Origin: an uncultured Ectothiorhodospiraceae bacterium
Lineage (GTDB): Bacteria; Pseudomonadota; Gammaproteobacteria; S012-40
Direction of reading: 5' to 3'
Assembly (NCBI GenBank): GCA_945787715.1
Contig: CALZJE010000040.1
Coordinates: 1 to 42,479 of the forward strand
DNA: 42,479 nt
Positions within the stretch are counted from its first letter, which is position 1. The number at the start of each line of letters is the position of its first letter. Below, in pieces: positions 6,397 through 27,700 of this stretch. The notes under the pieces were generated by a model. The model searched no databases. It saw only the letters and a program-made list of their open reading frames with translations, and was not told where the DNA came from. The translations under genes were made by a program, and so were the position numbers.

Positions 6397-6879
6397 TTAA
6401 ATATCACTCAATTCATTCAGTTTTTGATTTAGTTGTCTTAACCGCTTCCTGATGCCGGATTCAGACATATTCATTTCTTTAGCAACTTCTTGCAGCGTTA
6501 AACCATCGACTAGGTGGAGAACTGCGATTGTTCTGCTACTTTCGGGTACTCGTTTAAAAAGCATAGATAAGACTCTTGCTGCATGTGTCTGTGACTCTAT
6601 GTCTTCTAAAGTGGCGATTCGTACTAACAAATCATCACTATTATGCTCATGCCAGCTATGCTCTTTTTGATATTTGCGTATAATATTTAGGCAAGTGTTT
6701 GTCGCAATTCGATAGAGCAGTGAAGATGGCGTGGTGAGATCCAGCTCATTTTCCTTAATTATTATCTGGACAAACACATCCTGCATAGCTTCGTAGGCAA
6801 GTGATTCATTTTTAAGTAACTTTTGACATCGCCTGAATACCATGGAAGCATAGCTGTCATATAAATCTTCGATATTAAT
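6397..6879 (-). CDS. ECF-type RNA polymerase sigma factor, probable ATT start
   Basis: Region 2 is visible as LYDSYASMVFRRCQ...AYEAMQDVFVQI, followed by YRIATNTCLNIIRKYQ. Region 4 is VLHLVDGLTLQEVAKEMNMSES...IRKRL. The first ATG in frame is at 6843, but it falls inside the region 2 helix: seven codons upstream of it read LYDSYAS, which belongs to the fold. No ATG, GTG or TTG lies between the in-frame stop at 6898-6900 and 6843. An ATT at 6877-6879 has GGGGA six bases upstream. I therefore place the start there (160 residues), as in infC-type starts. It heads the sigma/anti-sigma/caspase/lipoprotein cassette. Group assignment within ECF factors is not possible by eye. Confidence 0.82.
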   Translation of the reverse strand: MNIEDLYDSYASMVFRRCQKLLKNESLAYEAMQDVFVQIIIKENELDLTTPSSLLYRIATNTCLNIIRKYQKEHSWHEHNSDDLLVRIATLEDIESQTHAARVLSMLFKRVPESSRTIAVLHLVDGLTLQEVAKEMNMSESGIRKRLRQLNQKLNELSDI

Positions 6880-7601: not shown

Positions 7602-8444
7602 CTAATTGATGTAGTCACCCCATAGCAGTGTAATCCAGCCTGCAGATGCGAGGAATGGGCCGAATGGAATTGGCATATTTTTATCTCGGCCATGTATTAT
7701 AATGAGTGTAATACCCACTACAATTCCCACTAATGATGAGAGTAGAATGATCGGAAGCAGGGATTGCCAGCCCATCCACACGCCTAACATTGCGAGCAGT
7801 TTGAAATCGCCATGTCCTATACCCTCTTTACCCGTGGTTAATTTAAACAAAATGTAAACTGACCACAGGCTCAGATAGCCGAGGATCCCGCCGACGATTG
7901 CGGATTCCGCATCAGTGAAAATGCCCGCAAGACTTAGCCCGAGACCAAGCCAAAGAAAAGGGAGAGTGATGCTGTCTGGTAATAGTTGATGATCAAAATC
8001 GATGATGCTGAGCGTGACGAGTGCCCATGTTAGCAGTAGTGCTGCGATCGTTTCCCAGGTTGGGCCTAAGTGCCATGCCACGGCTATCGATAACAGTGCC
8101 GTGATTGCTTCGATAGCGGGATAGCGAAGTGGAATGTTTGTGCCACAATCGCTGCAGCGACCTTTGAGGAACAAATAACTGAGGATAGGAATGTTCTCCA
8201 TCGCCTTAATTTCGTGGCTGCACTTTGGGCAGTGTGAGTTGGGCGTGATTAGATTGAAGGGTGCGTCTTCCTTTTCGTCGGAAGATGTTTTTCGAAAACG
8301 TGCGTGACCCAGAGCGTACCATTCGTTTTCCATCATCACCGGTAGACGTAAGATGACGACATTGAGGAAGCTGCCGACCAGTAATCCTAAAACGCCAATC
8401 ACAGTGATAAAAAAGAGGGGGTTGTGGCTAAAAAATATTAACAT
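7602..8444 (-). CDS. Prepilin peptidase (PilD/GspO family, A24)
   Basis: 280 residues, polytopic inner membrane aspartic protease that cleaves and N-methylates type IV prepilins. The cytoplasmic zinc-binding tetracysteine is complete (C72, C75, C97, C100 in CPKC and CSDC). Both catalytic aspartates are visible: D149 in SIIDFDHQLLPD and D213 in GHGDFKLLA. About seven to eight membrane segments surround them. It is the last gene of the pilus operon, 63 bp after the protease gene, and would process the three prepilins encoded at the other end of the same operon. Having its own peptidase suggests the system can work independently of a housekeeping PilD. Confidence 0.95.
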   Translation of the reverse strand: MLIFFSHNPLFFITVIGVLGLLVGSFLNVVILRLPVMMENEWYALGHARFRKTSSDEKEDAPFNLITPNSHCPKCSHEIKAMENIPILSYLFLKGRCSDCGTNIPLRYPAIEAITALLSIAVAWHLGPTWETIAALLLTWALVTLSIIDFDHQLLPDSITLPFLWLGLGLSLAGIFTDAESAIVGGILGYLSLWSVYILFKLTTGKEGIGHGDFKLLAMLGVWMGWQSLLPIILLSSLVGIVVGITLIIIHGRDKNMPIPFGPFLASAGWITLLWGDYIN

Positions 8445-11093: not shown

Positions 11094-11608
11094 CGGGCTC
11101 CCTGAGTTTCCAACAACATCTGAGCCTGAGAATGACCGCTAGCAGCGGATAACTCTAACCACTGTATGGCCCGACTGCCGTCAGGAAGTGTGCCGAGACC
11201 ATCGCTAAGCATATGATGAAGCATAAACTGGGCATGAGTGTGACTTTGTTCGGCCGCTTGTTCATACCAATACATAGCTTTGTAATAGTCCTGAGGAATA
11301 CCGAGACCGAAAAAATGAAGCTCTGCCAGCAACGCTTGTGAACTGGCAATTCCCTCATTCGCTCCGCGTCGGCACCACTGTAATGCCCGACGATAGTCGG
11401 ACGTTGTGCCGTATTCGCCATAGAGATATTGATAACAATAGTTGTGTGTTAACTGTTGCTTTGCAGAGTGACTCTGAGAGGGCGGTGCAATTTTTCCTGG
11501 CGCAGCACAACCGCCCACCAAAGCAACCAACATAGTCACAAAAACCAAAACAACGTTGTTCATCTGAAGCATTATTTTATTCATATCTTGTGTCATTTTT
11601 AGTATCAT
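11090..11608 (-). CDS. Sel1-repeat lipoprotein
   Basis: About 172 residues from the ATG at 11608, which has AAGA a few bases upstream. The frame stays open to a GTG at 11641 inside the secretin gene, and a later ATG at 11584 is also possible. All choices leave a lipobox (LVGGC) after a hydrophobic segment. The mature part has about three Sel1 repeats, each with the A-x-x-W-(Y/C/L)-x-x-(A/S)-A pattern (RALQWCRRGA, KAMYWYEQAA, RAIQWLELSA) and the intervening A-Q/S-x-x-L turn. Sel1 repeats mediate protein-protein contacts, in pili often as secretin pilotin-like or assembly adaptors. Its place directly after the secretin gene, overlapping the S8 protease gene, suggests a helper for one of these. 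That role is inferred. Confidence 0.85.
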   Translation of the reverse strand: MILKMTQDMNKIMLQMNNVVLVFVTMLVALVGGCAAPGKIAPPSQSHSAKQQLTHNYCYQYLYGEYGTTSDYRRALQWCRRGANEGIASSQALLAELHFFGLGIPQDYYKAMYWYEQAAEQSHTHAQFMLHHMLSDGLGTLPDGSRAIQWLELSAASGHSQAQMLLETQGAR

Positions 11609-11628
11609 TTTTCTTACAATAAATCGTA

Positions 11629-13236
11629 TTACAAACGACACCGTTCACCACAGCGTAATGCAATATCGATCGCGGCGATGGGTGTCTCATTCTTCGCCGG
11701 CGCGGTGTCGATCAAATGCGGGGTAATCATCAAAATCAATTCGCTGCGTTCATCGATTTGTTTGGTGGAAGTAAACAGTTGCCCCAGGCCGGGGATGTCC
11801 GACAGCCACGGCACCCGCTGCTCGCGGTCGCTACGGGTCTCCCTCACCAGGCCGCCAACGGCAATGGTGAAGTTGTCCTTAGCGATCACGGTGCCTTCCA
11901 GGCGTGCTGTGTTGATGGTATCCATGGGCAGTTGCAATACCTGCCCTCCGGAAACTACTGCTATTGATGCAGAGCCATCCTTAACTGTGGAGCTCTCTTG
12001 CTTCAACACCAAGGTGATGGTGTTGTCTGCATTAATATAAGGAGTGATTTCAATGACATTACCCACCTCCTCGATTTGTGTGGTGGGTACAATATTTGAA
12101 GAATTGAGGTTAACATTGCTGCCACTGTTATGGATCTCGGCGATTTTGTATCCAGTCACTATTATTCGCTGTTCACCAACGAAGAGCTTGGCGGGGCGAT
12201 TATTGGAGGCGAGTACCATGGGGGTAGACTGGATACGCACTCGATTATTCTGTTGAAAAAATTCGATGTTGGCTTTGAGGCGATCGTTAAGAAATTCAAA
12301 AACGAAACTGCCATTGGTCAAGGCGTTATTGCCCAGCAAAATAGGTTTCTCGCTATCACCGGTTAAACCAGAATTGGTAACCCCGAAGTTAAACACCGAA
12401 CTGAAATCGTCACCCACCAGCACGTCAAGCACCTTCATCTCCAGTAGTACTTGCGGTACCTGCCGATCCAAAGATTTAACTAGTTCGGTAATGCTACGCA
12501 AGGCAGCTTTGTCGCCCGTACGCACCACCACCAAATTATGTTCTGCGGCAATCGTGACAAAAATAGGTTCTTTTTGAGTCGAGATTTGTTGCAACTGATT
12601 TGAAGAAACCAAATTCCCACTATCGCCACTCGTCACTAGCCCCGCCAATTGGTCAACACTTAGGCCAGCATCCACCGTTTCCTTAACCGCGACACTTCCT
12701 CCAGAACCACTGGAACTGCCGCCCTGTTGAGAGCCGCTATTAATGCTTTCCTGACCCGAACCCTTGCCTGAGCTACTAAGCTGCACCCGCTTCCCGTAGA
12801 GATTGGCAATCGTCTCGGCCACTAGGTTGACATTAGGATTGCGCAGGGTAAACACCTGGGTTTTTTCGTCACGGTGAACCACTAGATCGCGGTTATATTC
12901 CTCGACCTCCATGATACGGAAAGTATCTGACGCAGTGTCAAGCCGATACCACAGACCAGTGATTTTACACAGTGTTTCGATCGCGTCCTTCACTGCCACA
13001 TGGCGCAGATAAAGTGTTACCTCTTTCTGACCCGCACTACGCGTGGCAACGATATTGACGCCGTACAACTCAGAGATAATGCGTGCTGCATCCACCACCT
13101 TGGCTGCTTTTAGTTCGAGTTGCTCGATGCGATGTTCTGCACCTCCGTGGGCCTGAGCAACCAAGGTAACAATCAACAAACAAATCAGAATAACTGTTTT
13201 GCCTGCTCGTGAAAAACTAGTGCTGCTCTTCAACAT
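11629..13236 (-). CDS. Secretin (PilQ/MshL/GspD family outer membrane channel)
   Basis: 535 residues with a signal peptide (about 1-29). Residues 34-110 form an STN-like N-domain (LELKAAKVVDAARIISELYGVNIV). An N1-type domain follows (TLRNPNVNLVAETIANLYG). There is a Ser/Gly-rich linker near 155-180. The secretin core (about 255-520) has the conserved segment VPWLSDIPGLGQLF and the terminal ELILMITPHLI. It forms the gated outer membrane pore for the pilus fibre. At 535 residues it lacks the AMIN domains of PilQ and is closer in size to MshL. Its start overlaps the PilP-like stop (TAATG). The short Cys-containing tail after the conserved end (RCGERCRL) is unusual. Confidence 0.93.
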   Translation of the reverse strand: MLKSSTSFSRAGKTVILICLLIVTLVAQAHGGAEHRIEQLELKAAKVVDAARIISELYGVNIVATRSAGQKEVTLYLRHVAVKDAIETLCKITGLWYRLDTASDTFRIMEVEEYNRDLVVHRDEKTQVFTLRNPNVNLVAETIANLYGKRVQLSSSGKGSGQESINSGSQQGGSSSGSGGSVAVKETVDAGLSVDQLAGLVTSGDSGNLVSSNQLQQISTQKEPIFVTIAAEHNLVVVRTGDKAALRSITELVKSLDRQVPQVLLEMKVLDVLVGDDFSSVFNFGVTNSGLTGDSEKPILLGNNALTNGSFVFEFLNDRLKANIEFFQQNNRVRIQSTPMVLASNNRPAKLFVGEQRIIVTGYKIAEIHNSGSNVNLNSSNIVPTTQIEEVGNVIEITPYINADNTITLVLKQESSTVKDGSASIAVVSGGQVLQLPMDTINTARLEGTVIAKDNFTIAVGGLVRETRSDREQRVPWLSDIPGLGQLFTSTKQIDERSELILMITPHLIDTAPAKNETPIAAIDIALRCGERCRL

Positions 13237-13814
13237 TACCGCACCACCATAATATCGCCGACTGTCCCGACTTCTACTACCACGCTGAGCCGGGCGATGG
13301 ACTTCACTTTGAGCACCTGACCGGGTTGGGTTGGGTCGAAGCTGATCTCGTCACCTCGGTTTACCATATAAACATCATGGCCACCGATCTCCAACAGAGC
13401 CAACGGCTCGCTGCCTTTAGTGCGGGTGATAACACCTCGCAGTTTGAGTGCAGGCAAACGCATTGCTCCTCTTACGGGTTGAAACGCCAGCACGTCGTTA
13501 TCCTGTGGCTTTGTCTTTCCAATCATTTCCGGTGTCACTGTAAACGGATCGCGCAGTCCGTCTCGAAACGCGTTATGAACGGGTGCTTCGGTTTTAGCAC
13601 TAAGAGCTGGTGTTTTTGTTACGGTCGCTTTAGGATCATCGAAACGACGCATCATCTCATCGTTTAACTGCTGGCGTTCTTGAAGCATCTGCAATAGACC
13701 GGGCAAGTCCCCTGTCAATCCAGTTGTAGATTGCTCGGCTCGTAGTGGTGATGCCATCATTAAAAGCACGGGCAAAAGACATCCCACACAGTAGTCAATT
13801 GTTCTCAAATTCAT
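13236..13814 (-). CDS. PilP/GspC-like periplasmic alignment protein
   Basis: 192 residues with a signal-type N-terminus (about 1-26, ends LRAEQ). A long charged and coiled region (about 35-95) follows, then a compact beta domain: LPALKLRGVITRTKGSEPLALLE, VYMVNRGDEI, GQVLKVKSIARLSVVVEV and IMVVR. This is the pattern of the GspC homology region and the PilP beta domain, which bind the secretin N-domain and connect it to the PilN/PilO complex. It overlaps the PilC-like gene by 4 nt and the secretin gene by 1 nt. MshK is a possible alternative label. Confidence 0.8.
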   Translation of the reverse strand: MNLRTIDYCVGCLLPVLLMMASPLRAEQSTTGLTGDLPGLLQMLQERQQLNDEMMRRFDDPKATVTKTPALSAKTEAPVHNAFRDGLRDPFTVTPEMIGKTKPQDNDVLAFQPVRGAMRLPALKLRGVITRTKGSEPLALLEIGGHDVYMVNRGDEISFDPTQPGQVLKVKSIARLSVVVEVGTVGDIMVVR

Positions 13815-15043
13815 CCTCCCGAAACTGCAAAAATTGCTTTGAAAAAAGCGATATAGACATAGGCCACCATACCGCCGATGATTAAAATGGCCACCGGTTC
13901 GATCATACTGCCTAAAAATTTGTTTTTTGCCTCCAGCATCTGATGATAAAAACGACCGGCTTCCTGCATGATCTGATCAAGGCTGCCGGAACGTTCGCCG
14001 ACCGACGCCAATTGCCGTACCATGGGCGTGATGTAGGGAGAATTCAGGCTGTTGCCTAAATCTCGACCACGCAGCACGCCTTCGGCGGCTTGCTGAAAGG
14101 CCATGGAAATGATCCGATTGGTGGTTATCTGTTTAACAATGTTGAGGGAATCCACCAAGGGTAGACCACTACGCAGCAGCATAGAGAGACTCCAAGCAGC
14201 CTGTGACATCGCTCCGAGCATAATGATTGAACCGATCACGGGAACTTTAAGTAAAAAACGATCTATCAATAAACGGCCACCTGGTCGGTGGTAGGTGTAA
14301 ATAATCACGGCGATAACAACCCCAATGCCAACAACAATATAGAGACCCCATTGAGTGAAAAACGCGGAGATATCCAACAATGATTGAGTCTGTGGTGGAA
14401 TCGGTTTGTTGTTGTTTTCAAAAAATTTAGCGAACTTGGGAATGACGCCGGTGACCAAAAAATAAAACATGCCCACTGCAATCAGAAGTGTGACCATCGG
14501 ATAAAACAGCGTCGTGAGTACATCACGTTTTAACTTCGCTTTGAGTTCCATATGGTCAGCGATGCGGTCCATCACCTCGTCAAGTTGGCCGCTTGCTTCG
14601 GCACTACGAATCATGTACTCAGCCATTTCAGGAAAAAAACTGTCATGTCTGGCGATCGCAATGGAAAGACTATCGCCAGATTGAATATCATCGAGCAAGG
14701 TGTTGATCGTTGTTTTCAATTTGCCAGATGCTAGATCGCGAACAGTTTTCATTGCCTCGGTCAAGGACAAACCTGAACGTAACATCAAAGCAATTTGGCG
14801 AAAGAAAAAAATCTTATTAGACACGGTTACCGGCAGATAATTTTTAAATGCATTAGCTATTTTTTTAGTCTCTAATGGACTATTCAAAGAAAAATTCTGC
14901 TCTGCATCAGCATCGTTTACTCCCAACACATAAAGACCCTGATTACGAAGTTTCTTACCAGCACTCTGTCGATCTTCGGCTTCAATGCTACCTTGCTGTT
15001 CCTGCCCCTGCTTATCGAGAACAATGTAACGATAAAGCTTCAT
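13811..15043 (-). CDS. PilC/GspF-family inner membrane platform protein
   Basis: 410 residues. An N-terminal YRYIVLDKQGQEQQGSIEAED segment is typical of the family. Two GspF (T2SSF) domains follow: one around 75-200 (FFRQIALMLRSGLSLTEAM, membrane helix near 175-200) and one around 275-400 (WSLSMLLRSGLPLVDSL, last helix VAILIIGGMVAYVYIAFFKAI). The platform protein couples the assembly ATPases to pilin extraction from the inner membrane. Length matches the family. It overlaps both neighbours by 4 nt. Confidence 0.95.
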   Translation of the reverse strand: MKLYRYIVLDKQGQEQQGSIEAEDRQSAGKKLRNQGLYVLGVNDADAEQNFSLNSPLETKKIANAFKNYLPVTVSNKIFFFRQIALMLRSGLSLTEAMKTVRDLASGKLKTTINTLLDDIQSGDSLSIAIARHDSFFPEMAEYMIRSAEASGQLDEVMDRIADHMELKAKLKRDVLTTLFYPMVTLLIAVGMFYFLVTGVIPKFAKFFENNNKPIPPQTQSLLDISAFFTQWGLYIVVGIGVVIAVIIYTYHRPGGRLLIDRFLLKVPVIGSIIMLGAMSQAAWSLSMLLRSGLPLVDSLNIVKQITTNRIISMAFQQAAEGVLRGRDLGNSLNSPYITPMVRQLASVGERSGSLDQIMQEAGRFYHQMLEAKNKFLGSMIEPVAILIIGGMVAYVYIAFFKAIFAVSGG

Positions 15044-16791
15044 GCCGTACTCTCCGCATCTTTTTCATTCATGTCCCAAGCATCATGGCCAATGAGTGAA
15101 AGGCGGGCCAGCTCTTCCCAAGAGGTTGAACCGGCGATTAATTTATCGCGGCCATCTTGGGAAAGACTGGAGAAATGGCTCGCCTCTTGGCGCAAGGTGA
15201 TCTCGTCTGCATCTCGGGTGATTAACTCTCCCATGGCATCATCAATCCATAAGGTTTCAAACAGGGCCAGACGACCCCGGTAGCCGCTGCCCAGGCAGTG
15301 CGCACAACCTTTGGGCCGGTAAAGTTTAAAATCGTTACCTTCTTTATTCACATCACTCAACAAGCTTTTTTGCTGCGCATCGGGTTCGTAGGCTTCTTTA
15401 CAGGTATCGCAAAGCCGTCGCACCAAACGTTGGGCGATCACCGCTGCCAAGGTAGAGCCAATTAGATAGCGTTCTACGCCCATATCAATCAAGCGATTAA
15501 TGCTGGCAATGGCTGAGTTGGTGTGCAGTGTGGAAAAAACGAGATGGCCGGTCATAGCAGCCTTTAACGCGATACTGGCTGTCTCACCATCTCGAATTTC
15601 TCCGACCATGATGACATCGGGGTCATGGCGTAAAAAAGAGCGCAAGGCACTGGCAAAAGAGACCTTGCCGCTTACATGCACTTGCGATATACCATCCATA
15701 ACATATTCGATAGGATCTTCAGCGGTCATGATGTTAGTGTCACTGCCAACGATTTCTTGTAGCGCACTATAGAGCGTGGTGGATTTGCCGCTGCCCGTTG
15801 GGCCAGTGATCAACACCATGCCGTAGGGGCGACGAATCGTGGCCCGGAATTGAGCGAGACTGGTCGAAGAAAAACCGATTTGCTCCAGCGTCAATGCCTC
15901 AGCATCCGTACCCAAAAGACGCAAGGTTGCGCGCTCACCAAAACGGGTTGGCAGGCAAGCCGCACGGACGTCGAAGGTGGCATTAGTCTCGATGATCTCG
16001 TGGCTCATACTGCCATCTTGGGGTTGGCGCTGTTCGGCGATATCCATGCCGGCCAACACCTTCATGCGGCTCATCAAGCTCTGTCCATCGGCCGGCGAGA
16101 GTCGTTCCGGGTAGTATTGCAAACGACCATCAACACGCAGTCGAATTTGAAAGCTTTCTTTTAATGGTTCAAAGTGGATATCAGAAGCGCGTTGCAAGTA
16201 AGCCTCTTCAAATAAGGTATCAAGCAGAGCCACCGGATCAAAAGCTTTTGCCTGACTTGATTTGCCATCCGTTGTAGCTGATGCTAGCACTAGGGGGCTA
16301 TGCTGTTCGATGACGCGTTGTATAGTATTGGGTAGTGCTAAACGAACATCCATGTTGCCACCCAAAATACGCCGTGCCTGTTCAATGCCGGCGTGATCTT
16401 CGGGATCGGCAACGGCCAAAATAAATCGCTCGGTGTGTTCTGTGTTGTCGCCATCATTTCCAGACTTTTGTAGCCCTGTTCCGCTCAACTTTTTTTCCTT
16501 CAACCCTCTTCCAATCAACAATGGCACCATCAACCGCCTTTCCGATAATGAGCGAGGTAATTTACGCAGGCGCTTAGGATCGGGCTGCAAGGTATCGTCG
16601 ATATAAACAATGGCATGCAGTTCGGCATAGGCCCGATAGAGAGCAGCCAACGGTGTGCGTGTAGAAAAGCACACAAATGTTAATAAGTTTCGTCGCTCTC
16701 GACGCGCTTGGAGCTGTAAACGCGCCACTTCGTCAGCGGCTAGCAGCCCCTGTTCAATAGCGGCATTAATTAGGGTGGTATCGCGTAACAT
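15040..16791 (-). CDS. PilB/GspE-family assembly ATPase
   Basis: 583 residues. The N-terminal domain (about 1-165) is of the GspE/MshE N-type, with a Lys/Gly-rich insertion near 95-120. The ATPase part has ASDIHFEP (202-209), Walker A GPTGSGKST (330-338), an Asp box, Walker B (DPDVIMVGEIRD) and the His box (TGHLVFSTLHTN). A zinc tetracysteine follows (CDTC and CAHC about 30 residues apart), which distinguishes extension/secretion ATPases from PilT. It powers pilus extension at the inner membrane. It overlaps the PilC-like gene by 4 nt and the PilT-like gene by 1 nt. Confidence 0.95.
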   Translation of the reverse strand: MLRDTTLINAAIEQGLLAADEVARLQLQARRERRNLLTFVCFSTRTPLAALYRAYAELHAIVYIDDTLQPDPKRLRKLPRSLSERRLMVPLLIGRGLKEKKLSGTGLQKSGNDGDNTEHTERFILAVADPEDHAGIEQARRILGGNMDVRLALPNTIQRVIEQHSPLVLASATTDGKSSQAKAFDPVALLDTLFEEAYLQRASDIHFEPLKESFQIRLRVDGRLQYYPERLSPADGQSLMSRMKVLAGMDIAEQRQPQDGSMSHEIIETNATFDVRAACLPTRFGERATLRLLGTDAEALTLEQIGFSSTSLAQFRATIRRPYGMVLITGPTGSGKSTTLYSALQEIVGSDTNIMTAEDPIEYVMDGISQVHVSGKVSFASALRSFLRHDPDVIMVGEIRDGETASIALKAAMTGHLVFSTLHTNSAIASINRLIDMGVERYLIGSTLAAVIAQRLVRRLCDTCKEAYEPDAQQKSLLSDVNKEGNDFKLYRPKGCAHCLGSGYRGRLALFETLWIDDAMGELITRDADEITLRQEASHFSSLSQDGRDKLIAGSTSWEELARLSLIGHDAWDMNEKDAESTA

Positions 16792-17915
16792 TAGCTCGCT
16801 GCACCCAGTCGTTCGCGGGATTCAGCCTGTAAAACACGAAGCAAATCTTCGAGATGTTCACCCCGAGGGGTATGAGAAAGGGCCAAGGTTTTGCTGATTA
16901 AACGTTCTTTAACACGCAGCGCTAACGCTAACTCCAGGGTCTGGTTTCCCTGATTTCGACCAGTCTCCATGACAGAGCGGATTTGTTCAGGTTTGTGATG
17001 GCGAATCAGGCTGGCCACGGCGTTATTAACCATCAAAATTTCATTGATTGGAATACGCCCGCCTTGCTCTGAACGCAACAAACGCTGGGTCACTACTGCT
17101 CTTAACACCATTGATAACTGTTTACGTACGCCATCCTGTTCATCACCTGCAAAAGCACCCACTAAACGGTCGATAACACCAACCGCATCGTTGGTGTGCA
17201 GGGTGGAAAAAACCAAATGACCCGTTTCAGCTGCCGTTAAGGCCGCACTCATGGTTTCTGCATCACGCATTTCTCCCAATAAAATAACATCAGGATCTTC
17301 ACGTAACGCATCTTTAATCGCCTGGGCAAAAGAAATTGAATCAGCACCAACTTCACGCTGATGTACCGTCGCCAGCTGATTGCGATGAATATACTCCACT
17401 GGTTCTTCAATGGTGAGAATATGGCAACGACGTTGACGATTGATCTCATTGATCAAGCTTGCCAAAGTGGTTGACTTGCCACTGCCGGTAGCACCGGTGA
17501 TTAACACTAAACCTTCGTGAAAACGTGTCAATTCTTCCAATTGTGGTGGCAGGCGAAGTGCAGCCAGCGTATGAGTGGTGCCGTCTAGACGCCGTGCTGC
17601 TACGGCAATGCCGCCCCGTTCGCGATAGAGGTTAATTCGAAAACGCTCGCTGTTGCAACTGTAGCTTAAATCGGCACTACCTTGACGATCAAACGATTCA
17701 CGCCGAACTGGGCTAAGCAGGGATTGCAGAATAGCTTCGAGTCGTGGTTCATCCATCAGTTCCAGTGCTTCATCAGCAATCAACTCACCACCGATACGGT
17801 AAGTGGGGTGGCAGTGACGAGAGAGATGCAGATCGGATGCGCCTTTTTCGTTGGCGATAATCAACAGACGATCAAGCAACGATTGACTCGCTGCTGCAGA
17901 ATTATTTGAGTTCAT
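16791..17915 (-). CDS. PilT-like retraction ATPase
   Basis: 374 residues starting LLDRLLIIANEKGASDLHLS, typical of PilT/PilU. Walker A is GATGSGKST (141-149), Walker B is EDPDVILLGEMRD and the His box is TGHLVFSTLHTNDAV. There is no zinc tetracysteine. The C-terminal segment (SLIRHHKPEQIRSVMETGR) matches the PilT C-domain, and a nonstandard tail follows. A dedicated retraction-type ATPase beside the extension ATPase implies a retractable filament rather than a simple type II secretion pseudopilus; MSHA loci usually lack one. The gap to the upstream PilO-like gene is 62 bp. Confidence 0.93.
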   Translation of the reverse strand: MNSNNSAAASQSLLDRLLIIANEKGASDLHLSRHCHPTYRIGGELIADEALELMDEPRLEAILQSLLSPVRRESFDRQGSADLSYSCNSERFRINLYRERGGIAVAARRLDGTTHTLAALRLPPQLEELTRFHEGLVLITGATGSGKSTTLASLINEINRQRRCHILTIEEPVEYIHRNQLATVHQREVGADSISFAQAIKDALREDPDVILLGEMRDAETMSAALTAAETGHLVFSTLHTNDAVGVIDRLVGAFAGDEQDGVRKQLSMVLRAVVTQRLLRSEQGGRIPINEILMVNNAVASLIRHHKPEQIRSVMETGRNQGNQTLELALALRVKERLISKTLALSHTPRGEHLEDLLRVLQAESRERLGAAS

Positions 17916-17977: not shown

Positions 17978-18604
17978 CTAAAAGGCCAAGGTAAGTGCAG
18001 CTTGCAACACAGCATTGGGGGTACGCTCTTGCTCTATACTGAAAGCAAAACGAGTAACCACGACCGCATGCGGCAATTGTCTGAACGAGGTAATAAACTG
18101 GTTGAGCTGATAGAAATCACCACGCAACGTAATATCAAACAGACGACGGTTTAACAATGCATAAGCCTTTGCTTTCTCACCGGATCTTCCTGCATCGGTG
18201 GCCAGTTGTGTTAGATCCATGCTGGAAGCACTGATTTTCAAAATTCTGACGCGGCTTTCCGTCGCCAGCTGGGTAATTTGCTTGCGCATACTAGCTTCAG
18301 CATCACTGCGTCTCAGGTCGATGAAATTACTCTCAAATCCTTCCAGCGTGGATTGCTCTTTGGCCACCTTGGCTTTGAGCGACTCGACCTCCTGTCTCAG
18401 TGTGGCACTATTGTTAGCCCCAGGACGCAGGGGTTTTGCACTGTTCATCTCGGATTGACTTTTAGTAAGCTGCTCATCCAATACCTGCATGTCTGTTTGT
18501 AAGGGCTGGTATCGCAGCATCAGATAAGCACTAGCTATTCCAATCAAAGCTAGTATGCAAAGCAAAGCTGACTCGCGCTTTGATTTTGGCTTTAATGATT
18601 TCAT
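17978..18604 (-). CDS. PilO/MshJ-like inner membrane assembly protein
   Basis: 208 residues with a basic N-terminus, one membrane helix (about 14-30, LLCILALIGIASAYLML), a coiled-coil stretch (about 38-105) and a C-terminal ferredoxin-like domain pattern (LLNRRLFDITLRGDFYQLNQFITSFRQLPHAVVVTRFAF). This topology is that of PilO/GspM, which heterodimerises with PilN. It overlaps the upstream PilM-PilN fusion by 4 nt. Sequence similarity to PilO proteins is usually low, so the call rests on topology, domain pattern and position. Confidence 0.8.
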   Translation of the reverse strand: MKSLKPKSKRESALLCILALIGIASAYLMLRYQPLQTDMQVLDEQLTKSQSEMNSAKPLRPGANNSATLRQEVESLKAKVAKEQSTLEGFESNFIDLRRSDAEASMRKQITQLATESRVRILKISASSMDLTQLATDAGRSGEKAKAYALLNRRLFDITLRGDFYQLNQFITSFRQLPHAVVVTRFAFSIEQERTPNAVLQAALTLAF

Positions 18605-20418
18605 CGGCTAGGCTCTTGGTCGTTTGTTAATAGAGGTTTCAGCATAAATGAGAAACGATAACCTTCAATGCCATTACGATGCTCCACTTCGCTTGGACTA
18701 TTGGCGATATAGAGTCCCCAACTCTCCAACTCGTAGATAAGCAGTTCATTAAAGCTGTCGATGGCCTCTTGGTTCATTCCCCAGCCATTGAGTTTAAATC
18801 GATACCATTGCTGCTCTTCGAATGCTGTTACCACCACGCGATCGGGCACGACTCGCCCCAACATCGGCAGTAATGCCTCAACAAACTGCTGACGTTTAAT
18901 TAACACTGATTCGATGGCCTGCTTGCGAGCACTTTCCTTTTGAAAGGTTGCAGCCCACTCATCCCGTGACTTTTTTACCGACTGATATTCATCATCTTTG
19001 CTAGCCAATTTTTCGTTGGCAGCCAAAATCAGCGACGTCTTATGTTCGTTTTCAGCAATTTCTGCATCGATCTGTTTTGTTTTCCAGAGAGCCCAAGCCT
19101 CGTTACCTGTCATTATCATCAATAGCAAACCTAGGGCGGCGCCCAGCTGCACAATCGATTGTTTATACAATGGGGGAGGTGGTGGTTCACCCTGAAGTTG
19201 AATAGCACTGTCGGCAGATGTTAGCCCATAAAAATGAAAACAACTTGATAGCATGCCGCCAAATTCATCGGCCTTATTCGATTCGATACCGTGTTCGACA
19301 CCCGGTTCGAGAGCGGATTGAAACACGCAATGCGCCGATAACAGTTCTTGCAGCGGCACAAAGGGGCGTTGAAGTTTCTCGCTCAAGGTCTTCGCCAAGT
19401 TTTCACGCCGAGGATGACAGCCGGTCAGATATATCTTTTCAATATCGCTGCTCAATGCCGACTGACAGAGTTCGATAATTTCATCGGCTTTCACCGTGTG
19501 ATCACAGCACTTTATCAGCCCCAAGAAAACCACTTGCCCCTCTTCCACGCGACTGCAGACCACCACGCCGGGCTGAATCTCAACAACTACCTGAGGAGAT
19601 TTAAACTGCGCCAAACTTGGCGCAGTAGCACCAGCGGCAGGATAGAGCCACTGCAAGCGAACTTGATGGTGGGCAAAAGCTTCAACCCAGCTCTGGCGTA
19701 AGGTTGAGCTCATAGCAGCACACAACCACAAACCCGGCTGTCGACCTGCCTGAATTGGGCTGGGCTGCCAGCTGCAATCGACGCTACTATCAAACAGGTG
19801 CAGACTTTCCTGCAATGCCAGGCACTCTTCTAGTTGTTCGCGATTAATCCACTCACGTTTGATCGCCTCCTCGCCAAAACGCGCAGGCGTGCGACCACCA
19901 CTGGCTTGTGTCGCCAGCTTGAGTGCTTGCATGTCATCAATAATTTCATCACGTTGTTCCTCTGTAAGATAACCCCGGCCAATCAGCAGCCAACCGAGAT
20001 TCCATTGCGATAACTGCTCGGTAAGCAGCGCTTCCATCTCCCAGCGCACCAGCTCCAGCATGCGTTGATCTGGCAAGACTTCTTTACCTTCAATGGGTAA
20101 TTCTAATAGTGTAGGTATAATGTTTGTGTTAAGTAAGATGGCCTGTTTGGGTGGCGTTACACCGCGTTCTTCTAATTGTTTTAGGAGATCGCCTATCGCT
20201 GCCCGCGGCTCCATAGCGCGGGATTTCAATGTCTGTTCTACGATGACTTTGTCGCCATGTAGACCTACCACCAGGGCACGCAGGGTGAGGCCGTCGCTTT
20301 CGGCGACTAGGAGTCGGTTGGATTTTTTGGGGATTCGGGCTCGCAGGGTTTTGGCGTCAGGGAGACCACTAATTAGTGAATTGAGTTGCGTAGAGTTTTT
20401 GAGGATACGACGGTTCAA
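18601..20418 (-). CDS. GspL/PilM-PilN-like fusion with internal MshEN-like repeats
   Basis: 605 residues. The start is TTG at 20418, chosen because GGAGG lies seven bases upstream and TTGA overlaps the preceding stop. The cytoplasmic part (1-410) looks like an actin-fold PilM/GspL domain (LLVAESDGLTLRALVVG, later QVVVEIQPGVVVCSRVEEG). Inserted at about 139-206 are two copies of an L/F-G-x(4)-G/R-x-(L/I)-x-x-x-Q motif: 141-164 (LGWLLIGRGYLTEEQ) and 180-203 (RFGEEAIKREWINREQLEEC). This is the signature of MshEN-type modules. A membrane helix at about 421-437, a coiled coil (445-500) and a PilN-like periplasmic domain follow. It would bridge ATPase and periplasmic complex. The insertion is unusual for this protein type. 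Confidence 0.82.
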   Translation of the reverse strand: MNRRILKNSTQLNSLISGLPDAKTLRARIPKKSNRLLVAESDGLTLRALVVGLHGDKVIVEQTLKSRAMEPRAAIGDLLKQLEERGVTPPKQAILLNTNIIPTLLELPIEGKEVLPDQRMLELVRWEMEALLTEQLSQWNLGWLLIGRGYLTEEQRDEIIDDMQALKLATQASGGRTPARFGEEAIKREWINREQLEECLALQESLHLFDSSVDCSWQPSPIQAGRQPGLWLCAAMSSTLRQSWVEAFAHHQVRLQWLYPAAGATAPSLAQFKSPQVVVEIQPGVVVCSRVEEGQVVFLGLIKCCDHTVKADEIIELCQSALSSDIEKIYLTGCHPRRENLAKTLSEKLQRPFVPLQELLSAHCVFQSALEPGVEHGIESNKADEFGGMLSSCFHFYGLTSADSAIQLQGEPPPPPLYKQSIVQLGAALGLLLMIMTGNEAWALWKTKQIDAEIAENEHKTSLILAANEKLASKDDEYQSVKKSRDEWAATFQKESARKQAIESVLIKRQQFVEALLPMLGRVVPDRVVVTAFEEQQWYRFKLNGWGMNQEAIDSFNELLIYELESWGLYIANSPSEVEHRNGIEGYRFSFMLKPLLTNDQEPSR

Positions 20419-21389
20419 GGAGTGACCTCCAGAGAAATAGTCGGGGTTGAACTTCGTGGAAAAAGGTGTAAGGTTTGAAAATCACGAACTGCGTCACTGG
20501 ACTCATTAAATACAACAATGGGGTGAACTCCCACAGGAATAGTCGAGCCAACAGTAACAGCTACGCCATTTTCCAACCAGGCCGTGGTTGGTGAGGATGT
20601 TTCACTGGCGCCGACAGCTAAATTAGATAAATTAAAATAGTAGGTTGTCCATTTATCTGCCATTGCAACCGCGCTGTTCTCATATATGAGAATAGCCGCT
20701 GTATGATCGGTACCAAGTTCAGCGGCCAAGTTATTAGTAACAGTTACCTGGAGTGTAAACAGGTCAACGCGCCAGTCGTTCGGGCCGACTTCGTGCTCTA
20801 TGGGACCGCTAACCGCGTTGGCGGCAAGCTCATATTTATAGGTTTCGCTTGTTGAATCGTCTATGTCAAACTCCCGTCCCCAACCATCACGAAATTCGTT
20901 TTGTGAATCAAGATGTGCACGCACATAAGGCCCACGATACCCTTTGTAGATCTGTTCAGTTAGTGTTTCGTTTGTTGCTGGAGATTGAGAGCTGTCTTCA
21001 TAGATCGGATTTTTGGATCCATATAAATCCCACTTTTCGCCGCTATTTTCGGCCCAACCTGTACTTGCTGTATCATCGAAGTTGATCAGCGGATTCAGCG
21101 CTATTTCCGGGGTATCTGTTGGCGGTAATGTACCGTTATCAAAAATGAAGCCGGACATTATCGACTGATCGCCATGCGACCGAATCCCGAGAAGAGCGTC
21201 ATCAATTAATGTCATTTTCTGCAACGACTCTTCGTAACGATGATGCCCATCCTCTTTCTCAATAAAACTTAAAGACACCGCCGCCAGCGTACCCATGATG
21301 AATACCACTAATACCAATTCAAGTAAGGTAAAACCGCGTTGTTGGCTGAGACTTGTGCGTCGTGCGCACCACTCCCATTTGGTATTCAT
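20415..21389 (-). CDS. Type IV prepilin-like protein (324 aa)
   Basis: A class III leader is visible: 18 residues ending RG, then FTLLELVLVVFIMGTLAAVSLSF with Glu at mature position 5. The large C-terminal domain (about 250 residues) contains two segments like those in another prepilin of the operon (GYRGPYVRAHLDSQNEFRDGWG versus NGWRGPYLSGGDSG), suggesting a common ancestor. Its size is larger than typical major pilins, so it may be a minor pilin or tip component. It overlaps the periplasmic protein gene upstream and the PilM-PilN fusion downstream by 4 nt each. Confidence 0.87.
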   Translation of the reverse strand: MNTKWEWCARRTSLSQQRGFTLLELVLVVFIMGTLAAVSLSFIEKEDGHHRYEESLQKMTLIDDALLGIRSHGDQSIMSGFIFDNGTLPPTDTPEIALNPLINFDDTASTGWAENSGEKWDLYGSKNPIYEDSSQSPATNETLTEQIYKGYRGPYVRAHLDSQNEFRDGWGREFDIDDSTSETYKYELAANAVSGPIEHEVGPNDWRVDLFTLQVTVTNNLAAELGTDHTAAILIYENSAVAMADKWTTYYFNLSNLAVGASETSSPTTAWLENGVAVTVGSTIPVGVHPIVVFNESSDAVRDFQTLHLFPRSSTPTISLEVTP

Positions 21390-21931: not shown

Positions 21932-22675
21932 TCAATACAGACATAACACCAGATCATCAGTGTTGCCTAAGTTTGGTGGGCAGGTGAGCGTTTGATTAAG
22001 ATCATACTTGCCGTTTAGCCCCATGCTGACGATGCGAGCATCCGTTTGATCAAGATCGAACAGTAGGTAAGGGCGGCCGTATTTGTCATGAGGAGCATCA
22101 CTGTTCAATTGACCAACAAAACGCCAGTCCAACAAGCAATCGTCATTAACACCGACTGCATCATTCTCAATACATGATGTAAATGCAGATCCAGGATTAT
22201 CATTAGCAACCGGTGAAAAAGTGAAAGGATCAGGCACTCCACGAATAAGCGTTATCGCATTGATGTAGATGTTATAAGGTGTGCCGGAACCAGTGGTGAG
22301 CAGTGCATCGCCCACATCTACTAATCCAGAATCGCCACCCGAAAGATAAGGCCCGCGCCAGCCGTTTTGATAATCAATGTTCCAATTGGTAACAGCAGTG
22401 GGTAGGTTAAACATAAATCTAAAGTCTGCAGGCGATGTTTGAGCGATACCATTAAAATTTCCCACATCCTGCTTGTATTTCAGTAACGCTTGACGAATTT
22501 GCTCCATTTCGAAACGTGCGGCTTGAATTTTAGCGTTAGTTTGCACCGAGCCACTGCCGGTACCAAAACTACTTACTGCCATACTACCCAAGACTGCCAG
22601 AATTATTACAACCACCACCAATTCAAGCAAGGTAAATCCCTGCTCATAACGGCGTTTGTCAACTCTCTCATTCAT
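21932..22675 (-). CDS. Type IV prepilin-like protein (GspG/H type, 247 aa)
   Basis: I choose the ATG at 22675, with AGGA seven bases upstream; an upstream in-frame start at 22729 lacks this. The leader is short and basic (NERVDKRRYEQG), cleaved before FTLLELVVVVIILAVLGSMAVSSF, with Glu5 present. The mature domain contains WRGPYLSGGDSG and DKYGRPYLLFDLD, a GspG-like pattern of small disordered loops. Two Cys pairs near the C-terminus (SCIENDAVGVNDDCLLDW, TCPPNLGNTDDLVLCLY) could form disulfides, as in classic pilin D-loops. It is transcribed between the largest prepilin gene and the periplasmic protein gene. Confidence 0.87.
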   Translation of the reverse strand: MNERVDKRRYEQGFTLLELVVVVIILAVLGSMAVSSFGTGSGSVQTNAKIQAARFEMEQIRQALLKYKQDVGNFNGIAQTSPADFRFMFNLPTAVTNWNIDYQNGWRGPYLSGGDSGLVDVGDALLTTGSGTPYNIYINAITLIRGVPDPFTFSPVANDNPGSAFTSCIENDAVGVNDDCLLDWRFVGQLNSDAPHDKYGRPYLLFDLDQTDARIVSMGLNGKYDLNQTLTCPPNLGNTDDLVLCLY

Positions 22676-22783
22676 ATTTTTTTCCTGAAAAAAACGAGGA
22701 GACGCCGATGGACGCCACCCCGTTTTCATATGTCCCGCTAATTAAATCAATGATGGCGGGTCAAACTAACGAACTAAACGAAT

Positions 22784-23884
22784 TTAGCCCTTCTGACCGC
22801 TGAACTCAGCGATTTCTTCATCAAGAAAATCACCTCGGGCATCAATGATTGCTTGAACGTAGGCCTTACCGCCGCTCAAAGGAACATCAGTGGCGGTGGC
22901 AGTTAACAATCGACCATCGGCATCCCCATCGGTACCCACATTAATCAGTGCGATATAATGCGCATATTTATCCTTGCCAATTTGCCCGTAGAATGGTGCT
23001 TTAGCATAGGGTGAATCAGGCCCTCCAATGAAATCAGACGCTTGACCGATACCTAATCCAATCAACACCGCATTTTCATCAGCACCCACTTTTTTATTGT
23101 TATAGCCACCATCACCACGCTTCCATATCATCACTGGCTCAAGGGCCGCCATGGGAACGGAGAAACCACGTCCGCGGTTGTTCCATTCAGCGCCATTTGG
23201 CTGAGGATCTTCAAAGGCATGGTTGGGGATATCAGCATTAATTAGGAAATGCGCTGCATCACCAAAATCGGCTGCTGCTGTAATTGTAGAACCGCCGATA
23301 GTCGCGGTGTTTTCTACAGTGGTGGCATCATTGTCGCAAGCAGCTGCAACTGCATAGCGAACATTCAACACGCCTACATCAGTAAGTGCTAGCGCTTCTT
23401 TAGCGTCGGCAGCAACTAAGTCAAACTTACCCGCTAGCTTGGCACCGATACCGCCACCGATTCCGGAAATGTCGGATATACCACCAAATTTGTAGGACGT
23501 GGCAGCTAAAACTGGGGAAGGTGCCGCGGCATTAACAATTGCACCAGCTGCAGCCAAAGGACGGCAGGCCAGAGATTCCAGATTGTCCGGCAGACGCTTT
23601 TCGGCCGTTTGGTAATAGCGCAAGTTGCTTTCAATGCTCGCAATAACATTAGTCGCAGTTCCTTGTGCTGCTTTAGTTTCCTGACCGCCGAAAGACCCAA
23701 TTGCGGCACCACCAACAATCGCTAGAATCGCGACAACCACCAGAAGCTCAAGTAGCGTGAACCCACCTTCTTTGCGCTTCAGGCGCAAGGCTTTTTTGCG
23801 GAGTTTTTTATCTTCAATGCATTCAACGGATTTGATGTCTAGCGCATTGAATTTTGCGACTACTTCTTTTGCATTTTTTATCAT
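22784..23884 (-). CDS. Type IV prepilin with unusually long leader (366 aa)
   Basis: The ATG at 23884 follows GGAA; an upstream TTG at 23899 is less likely. The leader is 41 residues, very basic near its end (KKLRKKALRLKRKEGG), before FTLLELLVVVAILAIVGGAAIGSF with Glu5. Most prepilin leaders have 6-25 residues. The mature part is about 325 residues, Ala/Gly-rich, with a Cys in SLACRPL and another in AAACDND. As the first prepilin gene of the operon it is a good candidate for the major subunit, but its size is large for one. The gap to the next prepilin is about 110 bp. Confidence 0.87.
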   Translation of the reverse strand: MIKNAKEVVAKFNALDIKSVECIEDKKLRKKALRLKRKEGGFTLLELLVVVAILAIVGGAAIGSFGGQETKAAQGTATNVIASIESNLRYYQTAEKRLPDNLESLACRPLAAAGAIVNAAAPSPVLAATSYKFGGISDISGIGGGIGAKLAGKFDLVAADAKEALALTDVGVLNVRYAVAAACDNDATTVENTATIGGSTITAAADFGDAAHFLINADIPNHAFEDPQPNGAEWNNRGRGFSVPMAALEPVMIWKRGDGGYNNKKVGADENAVLIGLGIGQASDFIGGPDSPYAKAPFYGQIGKDKYAHYIALINVGTDGDADGRLLTATATDVPLSGGKAYVQAIIDARGDFLDEEIAEFSGQKG

Positions 23885-24012
23885 TACAATGTATTCCAAT
23901 TAGTTAATTTATCCGGGCCACTCCACTCGCAGGAGCTGGTTGTCGGTATTGATCATTTAGGGAAGAATGTGCGACCCCGCGCCGCCACGAAAATTAGTTT
24001 TACCTGGTGTTT

Positions 24013-24669: not shown

Positions 24670-24772
24670 TATGCTTAGTGAGGACGGCAGACGGTTAATA
24701 GTAACTTAGTGTTTGTCGAATAATGTTATACATATAGCGGATATAGCAGTTACAACAGGTAAGGAAAGCCAA

Positions 24773-27700
24773 ATGAAGCACGGAATGAAGATCACTTTTG
24801 TGGCAAAGATATTGGATTGTCGTTTGTGGTTCACCCCGTTATTTCTTCTATTCACTTTAATGAGTTCACAAGCTGTTTTCGCTGGCGAAACTTATCTCAC
24901 TAACACGGACAACGAAAATAATGCGCTAGAAGGCGTGGCTGATTTCGATTTAGATAATTTCATCACTCGTGGGGACGATCGTTCCCCAATAGAATTCAAC
25001 ATCAATCTCACTGGCGATCTCCCTACTGAATCTGCTCATTTAACATTACGTACGTTTGATATTGATGAAAAATCGGGTGAAATTGATAACGTTTATTTGA
25101 ACGGTAATTTTATTGGTTTTTTAACCGGTATGAATGGGCAGTGGAGCACATCAGTATTCGAAGTTGACAAAGACTTTATCGTTGCCGGCAATAATCTCAT
25201 TGAAATTCAGGTTAATGCGGGCTATCCCGATGTCACCAGTTCTATTAAGTGGGCGGTTACCGTTGATTGGGCACAGTTGTTGATCGATGGTGGTATCGCA
25301 GGCCGCGCTGATAACAAAGATATATCAATTATCGCTTACCTTGTTAATGACAATGACATCACTATTAACACACGTTCCGAAGTGTTTACTACGGTGGGGG
25401 GGCAATTTCTTGTCGAAATTAAACTGATAGACCCGAATGGAAATGTTATCAGTGTAGATTCGGAAAGTTTTAGTACTAATCCAGGCGCTACGCAAATTAT
25501 TGAACAAGTATCTGATTACAGTCTTACCGGTTCTACCGGTACTTACACCATTCAGGCGCTGCTATTTTTTGTTGATGCAGATGGGATACTGCAACAACAG
25601 GATATCGAAGCACTAGAGTTTGTGCATACCGCAGGAGTCGGCGCTATTGATATGGATGGCGATACATTAACCAATGAAGAAGAAAAGCAGATTGGCACCA
25701 GCCCATATAACTCGGATACTGATGGTGACGGAGTTGGTGATGCTGAAGAAGTTGGACCCGATATCAATTCACCACTTGATTCAGACGATGATGGTGTCAT
25801 GGATGCGCTTGAGTCCTCATTTTTAGATAGTGATAATGATGGTGTGCATGATCAGAGTGACCCGGAAGATAGTAATCCCTGTGCGCCCAACCTGGTAAGC
25901 GATGCCTGTTTATCGTTGGATACGGATAACGATGGATTAACCAATGGACAAGAAATACTTTTAGGAACAAATCTCAATGAGGCGGACACTGACGGCGATG
26001 GCATTGAAGACCTAAGCGAAGTTGGGAATGATGTAAACTTGCCACTCAATGCTGACAGTGATGATTTTATTGATGCGCTAGAGTCGGCGATAAATGATAG
26101 CGATGGTGATGGTGCCAGTGACCAAAACGATGCTGAGAACACAAATCCGTGTGTGCCTTTTCCCGATGCAGCAGAATGTTTAAACATTGATTCAGATGGT
26201 GATGGCTTGAGCAATGCGCAGGAAATTGCGTTGGGTACAAATCAAAATAATCCTGATACCGATGGCGATCAAATCCCGGATGGTGTGGAAGTAGGCAATA
26301 ATTTTAGTAATCCAATCGATAGCGACATTGATAGCCGAATCGATGCGTTGGAATCTGCCATTGCCGATGCGGACAGTGATGGCTGGAATGATCAGATTGA
26401 TCCCGCTAACAATAATCCTTGTATTCCCAATGTAAACAGCAACACCTGTGTTGGCCTGGACAATGACGGTGATGGTGTCCCGAATGCACAAGACACAGAT
26501 GCAGATAACGACGGCATTCCGAACATCGTGGAAGGCACAAGTGACAATGATGGCGATGGTGTTCCAAACCACCTCGATCTTGACAGTGATGGCGACGGCA
26601 TCAGTGACATCATCGAAGCGGGCGGCATTGACAGCAATGTTGACGGCGTGCTGGATAACGCTAACGACAGTGACGGCGATGGTCTGGCCGATTTGGTTGA
26701 TCTCGATAGCGGCGGCACTCCAATCATCCCACAGGACGCTGATGCAGACGGCATTCCCGACTTTGCTGAATCCAATACCATTGACGCCGATGGTGACGGC
26801 TTAAGTAACGCCGCCGATAAAGACGCAGACAATGATGGTATCCCCGATGGAGTGGAAGCCGGTAGCAATCCCAACTCACCGGTTGATACAGACAACGACG
26901 GCCTAGAGGATTATCTCGACCTTGATAGTGATAACGATGGTCTAACTGATCTCATTGAAGCTGGCGGAATTGACGGCAATGGCGATGGCAAGTTGGATGA
27001 TTTTGCGGATAGTGACAATGATGGACTTGCTGATCTGGTTGATTCCGATAATGGGGGCACGGCATTACCGATCCCGGATACAGATAATGATGGTATTAAA
27101 GATTTCCGTGACTGGGATAGCGACAACGACAGCATCGCAGACCTGGTCGAAGCTGGAGGCGTCGATGCTAATGGGGATGGCAAGACAGACGAGCAAACCG
27201 ACACTGATAATGATGGTTTAGTAGACCTCTTCGACCCCGACAATAGTGGTTCGCCACTGACCACCGATGATAGCGATGGCGACGATCTACACAACGGAAT
27301 AGATTCAGGAGCGGCGGATCAGGACAATGACGGTGTTAATGACCAGGATGATCTTTCAAATAATAACGCCTGTGATCCTAATCCTAATAGCATGGCTTGC
27401 TTCAGTGGCTCAGCCGATCGTGATGATGATGGTTTAACTAATACTCAGGAAGCAGCATTAGGTACCGATCCCACACAGCTAGATAGTGATGGCGATGGAC
27501 AATCAGATCTGGCCGAAGTGAGTGATCCAGACTCTCCAACAGATACTGACGGCGACGGAATCATAGATGCCATTGAATCCAACAACCACGACACGGATGG
27601 TGACAGCATTGTTGACGCGCAGGATATGGATACGGATGGTGACGGTATTCCAGATGTTATTGAAAAAGGCGGCAGTCCTGCCGTTGCAGATAGTGATGAT

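Follow-up and report, generated by a model that had tools for sequence, protein, structure and literature searches.

The closest described counterparts of the domain reported here are the MshEN_N domains of V. cholerae MshE (5HTL) and T. thermophilus PilF GSPII-B (8PFA/8PDK), in which tandem 24-residue motifs form a four-helix bundle. In MshE, one guanine pocket (Gua1) consists of R9, G11, L25, L29, Q32 and L39 and the other (Gua2) of L10, R38, G40, L54, L58 and Q61, and the isolated MshEN_N (VcMshE 1-62) binds c-di-GMP with a KD of 0.35 uM, so MshEN_C is dispensable for binding (PMC5013675). The domain is portable, and fusions with REC, HD-GYP, CheA, CheX, cyclase, kinase and glycosyltransferase domains are described in the same paper, whose section on them mentions neither scaffolds of pili or secretion systems nor a domain inserted into another fold. 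Our search of titles and abstract openings turned up no report of MshEN in a PilM or GspL protein. The degenerate GSPII/ND0 domains of XpsE, PilF GSPII-A and X. citri PilB, which also lie in the ATPase, have the same fold with the ligand motif partly lost. The part that MshEN/N1 plays in catalysis and in pilus extension is, according to PMC11656802, poorly understood. On the scaffold side, GspL, PilM with PilN, and MshI provide a cytoplasmic PilM-like part, a transmembrane (TM) helix and a PilN-like periplasmic part.

Both elements meet in one protein encoded in the window, by which we mean the whole analysed stretch of 42,479 nucleotides from an uncultured Ectothiorhodospiraceae bacterium. 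Sequence comparison identifies this protein as a GspL-like PilM-PilN fusion, by homology the stator or socket subunit of a type IV pilus or type II-like machine, and places a predicted MshEN_N (ND0) four-helix domain inside its PilM-like part. We regard this anatomy and homology as nearly certain. The features of the locus are as follows.

7602..8444, minus strand, prepilin peptidase (Peptidase_A24, 3.9e-25)
11629..13236, minus strand, secretin (Secretin, 2.3e-36)
13236..13814, minus strand, PilP/GspC-like gene (by position; syntenic homologues in relatives' loci)
13811..15043, minus strand, PilC/GspF platform protein (T2SSF, 9.8e-53)
15040..16791, minus strand, assembly ATPase (PilB/GspE) with a degenerate ND0 (T2SSE, 1.8e-120; PF05157 match at profile positions 39-84 only)
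16791..17915, minus strand, PilT-like ATPase without an N-terminal GSPII domain (T2SSE, 4.1e-45)
17978..18604, minus strand, PilO/GspM-like gene (PilO E 0.027, below cut-off; synteny; its relative in L003 matches T2SSM at E 6.5e-4)
18601..20418, minus strand, gene of the 605-aa GspL-like scaffold, with a cytoplasmic PilM-like part, a TM helix and a periplasmic PilN-like part
18604..19167, minus strand, TM helix predicted by eye, followed by the PilN-like periplasmic part, together residues about 418-605 (match to the PilN-type protein L058)
19183..19797, minus strand, remainder of the PilM-like part beyond the insert, residues 208-412 (aligned on its own with L056, P 3.9e-4)
19798..20007, minus strand, MshEN_N/ND0-like four-helix insert, residues 138-207 (profile, PDB, fold and insertion comparisons)
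19810..19881, minus strand, motif II, residues 180-203, which retains the ligand positions (R180, F181, G182, L196, L200, Q203; E189 replaces Gly)
19930..20001, minus strand, degenerate motif I, residues 140-163 (Arg, Leu and Gln replaced by N140, R156 and M163; G142 and G149 retained)
20008..20331, minus strand, PilM-like part before the insert, residues 30-137 (P 2.1e-7 to L056, N part alone)
20415..21389, minus strand, pilin-like protein directly upstream of the scaffold gene (N-methylation motif)
21932..22729, minus strand, pilin-like protein
22784..23899, minus strand, pilin-like protein

The scaffold reading frame begins with a TTG at 20418 and ends with the stop codon 18601-18603. Three pilin-like genes precede it, and the PilO/GspM-like gene, the PilT-like gene, the assembly ATPase, GspF/PilC, the PilP-like gene and the secretin follow, with the prepilin peptidase further on. 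PilO/GspM, ATPase, platform protein and secretin are the neighbours expected for GspL or PilM-PilN, and all are present. No MshEN was found among the best 25 Pfam families for the PilT-like ATPase, and the Pfam search with the PilP/GspC-like gene gave zero matches. An identical scaffold protein occurs on CAMYNQ010000047.1, from an uncultured Chromatiaceae bacterium (MAG). Between the secretin and prepilin peptidase genes (8508-11641) lie genes for an 861-aa subtilase (S8) and a Sel1-repeat protein, homologues of which are not labelled in the relatives' loci, these being cut at no more than 20 kb. Elsewhere in the window, 24713-30913 encodes a divergent protein of 2066 aa that has an OmpA domain at its C-terminus besides TSP3 repeats and a match to a beta-barrel, and a sigma-70-like factor, a 265-aa protein and a caspase-like (Peptidase_C14) protein stand in a row at 3968-6843.

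The scaffold belongs to a family for which we assembled 26 rows, namely the window protein and 25 further complete or near-complete members (L004 by its PilM half only), from five GTDB families; identity to the window protein is 21-31% for 24 relatives. The genome search found a member in 1 of 13 genomes of the window's own order, in 3 of 53 in the order of genome G130 and in 1 of 5 in that of G257. In the order of G171, 22 of 63 genomes gave matches, comprising 20 full-length members, one fragment cut by a contig end (L049) and one weak PilN-region match with stops outside the family (L050), the last two being left out. Draws from the class and the phylum, which overlap with each other and with the order searches, gave 4 family genomes among 11 tallied (of 369) and 2 among 32 tallied (of 398). 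L024, L027-L029, L051 and L076 were left out as repeats of loci already counted. Similar gene order, pilin-PilMN-PilO-(PilT)-ATPase-GspF-type, is seen in 16 further loci, two of them (L060 and L072) truncated at a contig end; six of the 16, like the window, have the PilT-like gene and ten lack it. In L004 (758-2526, minus strand, genome G257), separate ORFs in different frames encode the PilM half and the PilN half and overlap at an ATGA.

Pfam assigns 0 families to the window scaffold protein. The initial annotation had called it a PilM-PilN (GspL-like) fusion, and this stands on homology to PilM/MshI and to the fusion L056, a PilN-type match and one relative matching TIGR01709. For the PilN-like part, the corresponding region of profile A1 found the PilN-type protein L058, which matches Pfam PilN at E 0.0011. 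TIGR01709 (GspL) finds 2 of the 25 members with E no higher than 0.1 and is not listed for the window protein; in the one member shown with bits, L034, residues 215-462, starting just after the insert, score 21.7 of 65 bits, far below the cut-off. Since TIGR01709 stays below its cut-off, we call the scaffold GspL-like rather than GspL. Unlike GspL, PilM with PilN, and MshI, it carries an insert of about 70 residues.

Within this insert, repeats resembling MshEN modules had been noticed at residues 141-164 and 180-203. Both segments read as given, but copy 1 is in register at 140-163, because its first residue, N140, takes the position of the motif Arg; the aligned repeats are NLGWLLIGRGYLTEEQRDEIIDDM (140-163) and RFGEEAIKREWINREQLEECLALQ (180-203). 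The terminal Gln of the pattern first proposed is motif position 16 (Q155/Q195), and the Gln that contacts the ligand in MshEN stands at position 24, occupied by M163 in the first copy and by Q203 in the second. The remark that the conserved Arg is present only in the second copy applies to the window and to the whole family (copy 1, 0/26; copy 2, R in 25/26 and K in 1/26). The repeat observation is confirmed and the proposed MshEN homology is right, and c-di-GMP binding is putative.

Evidence for the homology comes from several kinds of search. Since the PF05157 match in the operon ATPase spans only profile positions 39-84, we built our own MshEN_N profile from six canonical segments, found independently in PF05157 ATPases of the window's own genome and three other searched genomes; PF05157 presumably covers mainly the second half of MshEN. 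The window protein scores 16.5 bits against this profile (E 3.5e-4 among 1050 sequences), while 1000 shuffles of family proteins reach at most 7.3 bits. In profile-profile comparison, the family aligns with the six canonical segments over 53 columns (P 6.4e-8, score 41.6), motif I on I and motif II on II; the best of 200 column-permuted controls reaches P 0.0081 (score 17.7). On the shuffles and permuted columns we reject a chance repeat. Against PDB sequences, the best phmmer match of the window protein is PilF GSPII-B, though weak (E 0.21), and the family profile A2 finds V. cholerae MshE first (5htl, E 0.012), with an alignment spanning the whole insert. The NCBIfam model NF053729 (c-di-GMP motif, MshE-related) places its positions 1-24 on window residues 180-203 (E 1.5e-4) at 21.5 of 38 bits, below the curated cut-off; it finds 21 of the 25 members with E no higher than 0.1, and the best of those shown with bits (24.7) is likewise below. 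Pfam, run on the 25 members, shows no MshEN among the 25 families listed.

The reverse search agrees. A search of 398 genomes of the phylum with the family profile listed 33 places, 2 of them family members and 31 others; 25 of these 31 match the insert part only, and the insert part alone retrieves MshEN proteins. All six insert-only matches tested against NF053729 (five from the phylum search and L057 from the class draw) are above its cut-off. As a separate observation, small proteins of 237-267 aa (L077, L078, L082, L094 and L099) carry a tandem MshEN at the N-terminus and then a hydrophobic segment, and the two scanned, L077 and L094, are above the c-di-GMP-motif cut-off; L081 and L104 are not counted in this survey.

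Structure prediction points the same way. A single-sequence AlphaFold2 model of residues 110-225 has four helices with a pLDDT of 71.9 (five models, 40.2-71.9). With the insert model, the first four Foldseek rows are MshE and PilF GSPII-B (first row: probability 0.97, E 0.56), and VIA-align superposes it on these structures with Z 8.9 over 57-60 residues (rmsd 2.2-3.1), the best unrelated row having 7.5; since middling Z is common for helical bundles, this value is only moderate evidence alone. The window protein has the two tandem 24-residue motifs, aligning motif to motif, and a predicted four-helix bundle, and lacks the motif I Arg and Gln, the five-residue spacer and a score above the NF053729 curated cut-off. 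The spacer between motifs is 16 residues in the window and 11-19 across the family, versus 5 in canonical MshEN. Unlike the domains of MshE and PilF GSPII-B, the insert is not followed by MshEN_C. Profile search and structure prediction against MshEN, the check that the initial annotation had proposed, both favour homology of the insert, and the opposite outcomes it had named, a segment of the normal actin fold or no homology to MshEN, were not found for the insert.

The segment had also been read as an insertion in the actin-like cytoplasmic part, and the host alignments support an insertion in the PilM-like cytoplasmic part. L056, a PilM-PilN fusion of another genome in the class, is without the inserted segment, and its alignment with the PilM part of the family improves from P 1.9e-6 to 1.9e-9 once residues 138-207 are removed, on which ground we reject the insert as a normal part of the actin fold. 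Against a combined PilM and MshI profile, P changes from 0.0049 with the insert to 4.7e-5 without it; comparisons with four PilM alone (0.012 and 0.013) and with MshI-like L109 alone (0.19 and 0.16) are not significant either way. The insert follows a helix ending VRWEMEALL and precedes a strand at DCSW, where PilM has, in the alignment, a EADQYIPYPLEEV..DFE stretch; the insertion point is presumably subdomain 1C. The model of the PilM-like host part (residues 30-415) is poor, with a pLDDT of 44.4.

In order to predict the ligand site, positions were mapped from V. cholerae MshE as given in PMC5013675. The Gua2 equivalents are L141 (L/V/I in 26/26), R180 (R in 25, K in 1), G182 (26/26), L196 (L/V/I in 23/26), L200 (L/F/V/I in 26/26) and Q203 (26/26), and those of Gua1 are N140 (Arg in 0/26), G142 (25/26), R156, I160, M163 (Gln in 18/26) and F181 (hydrophobic in 26/26). 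Motif II of the window follows the consensus RLGxxLLxxGLLxxxxLxxxLxxQ apart from E189 at the turn Gly (Gly in 22/26 members), and its mean entropy in the family, 1.47 bits, is the lowest of seven regions compared (others, 1.69-2.36). These residue counts and the entropy indicate that the family has kept one whole predicted guanine pocket, built on motif II, and that the other is eroded, most in the window's clade. In VcMshE, changes of Arg9 or Gln32 alter affinity no more than fivefold (PMC5013675), and in PilF GSPII-A a Ser at the motif-II Arg position abolishes measurable binding (PMC12002112). Given this comparison and its eroded motif I, the window protein is a doubtful c-di-GMP binder, and relatives with the motif-I Gln are better candidates. 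That Gln is kept in 10 of 10 members without an operon PilT and lost in 7 of 7 with it. However, the association needs only one change on the tree, so descent alone may explain it, and we rejected it as a functional link. c-di-GMP itself is very likely available in these cells, as the genome has 40 GGDEF places.

The degenerate ND0 of the operon's own ATPase had not been noticed in the initial annotation, which placed the repeats in the scaffold and not in the ATPase. We compared 16 operon ATPases, the window's included; L072, whose contig is cut, is without the ATPase gene. Their N-termini align as ND0 (P 4.5e-6; 15 sequences, L062 with its disturbed N-terminus left out), and against the canonical MshEN_N profile the best score is 3.7 bits, so they have no MshEN_N consensus. 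NF053729 has no match in the complete list for the window ATPase, and is absent among the 25 families listed for the set of 16, in which a match of a single member could be hidden. Nine of the 16 match NfrB, a model of c-di-GMP-activated glycosyltransferase, which counts against clean loss. Judged from these alignments, the assembly ATPases of these operons have only a degenerate ND0/MshEN_N. Other ATPases of the same genome (L018 and L016) have a canonical MshEN domain. The degenerate ND0 of the operon's own motor strengthens the proposal that sensing was relocated to the scaffold, but alone proves nothing, because the PilB proteins of Xanthomonas and Pseudomonas lack the motif too (PMC8389850).

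Our best explanation, at roughly even chances, is a sensor module in the socket of the motor: for the family, binding of c-di-GMP or of a similar guanine nucleotide is plausible, and the window copy would bind weakly or with one pocket. It is supported by the insert in 26 of 26 members, by R180, G182 and Q203 and by the operon kept in 16 further loci; motif I without Arg in all members and, in the window, without Gln and with Arg at a pocket Leu, E189, the long spacer and the sub-threshold NF053729 score stand against it. The main rival, to which we give a little under an even chance, is a ligand-free ND0 fold acting as a docking or oligomerisation module that packs on the ATPase ND0/ND1 or on a neighbouring scaffold subunit. 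It would be analogous to the non-binding GSPII domains of XpsE and PilF GSPII-A, ND0 domains without the ligand motif are known (PMC8389850, PMC5013675, PMC12002112), and the missing motif-I Arg and the NF053729 score fit it. However, Arg, Gly and Gln of motif II are kept over deep divergence in the tree, while XpsE has lost R38, G40 and Q61 (PMC5013675) and no comparable consensus is visible in the degenerate ND0 of the operon ATPases.

Decay of a former c-di-GMP binder, with Arg, Gly and Gln of motif II surviving for structural reasons only, would account for the graded loss, in which the motif-I Gln is kept in operons without PilT and lost in those with it, the window included; as the motif II positions show little or no variation in either clade across an old split, we consider it very improbable. 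Alpha-helical repeats with G and Q are common and the host model is poor, so one might suppose that the segment is a chance repeat or consists of normal helices of the PilM actin-like fold, yet this reading is already contradicted by the insert-free L056 and its improved alignment, by the motif-to-motif match far beyond the permuted controls, and by MshEN proteins, MshE and PilF as the best matches in profile, PDB and fold searches, and we give it almost no weight.

With the sensor module in the socket as the preferred reading, a guanine nucleotide, most likely c-di-GMP, would be bound by the scaffold insert, the nucleotide-sensing ND0 thus probably sitting in the socket and not on the motor. 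The ligand-bound insert would change how the socket docks ND0/ND1 of the ATPase, and altered docking would bias pilus assembly; from the socket, the insert could influence the extension motor and also the PilT-like motor in operons that have one. Since PilM homologues bind the ATPase through its ND1, next to ND0 (PMC8389850), and PilMN stimulation of PilF requires GSPII-C (PMC6325625), we infer that a second ND0 inside a PilM homologue is placed where docking could be influenced. Whether some family member binds c-di-GMP at micromolar affinity or better could go either way, and for the window protein itself such binding is possible but the less probable outcome. A further reading, which we hold to be unlikely, takes the sensor as moved into a socket ring shared by the motors, with one complete pocket per scaffold subunit; c-di-GMP would then bridge two adjacent PilM-PilN subunits, with one guanine in each, or the pocket would read a mono-guanine nucleotide, and the ring, not the motor, would decide between extension and retraction.

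In summary, the anatomy of this scaffold is secure and its sensing is not. An ND0 fused to the socket, unlike those of XpsE, PilF GSPII-A and X. citri PilB in keeping Arg, Gly and Gln of motif II, lies beside a motor whose own ND0 is without the motif, which would separate sensing from ATP hydrolysis and makes the coupling of motor and socket directly testable. If ligand binding is true, GspL/PilM-type scaffolds would be a class of receptors overlooked by ATPase-only searches, which would miss them because NF053729 stays below its cut-off in the members shown with bits and Pfam is blank on the window protein, and the pilus may be controlled from its base rather than from its engine.
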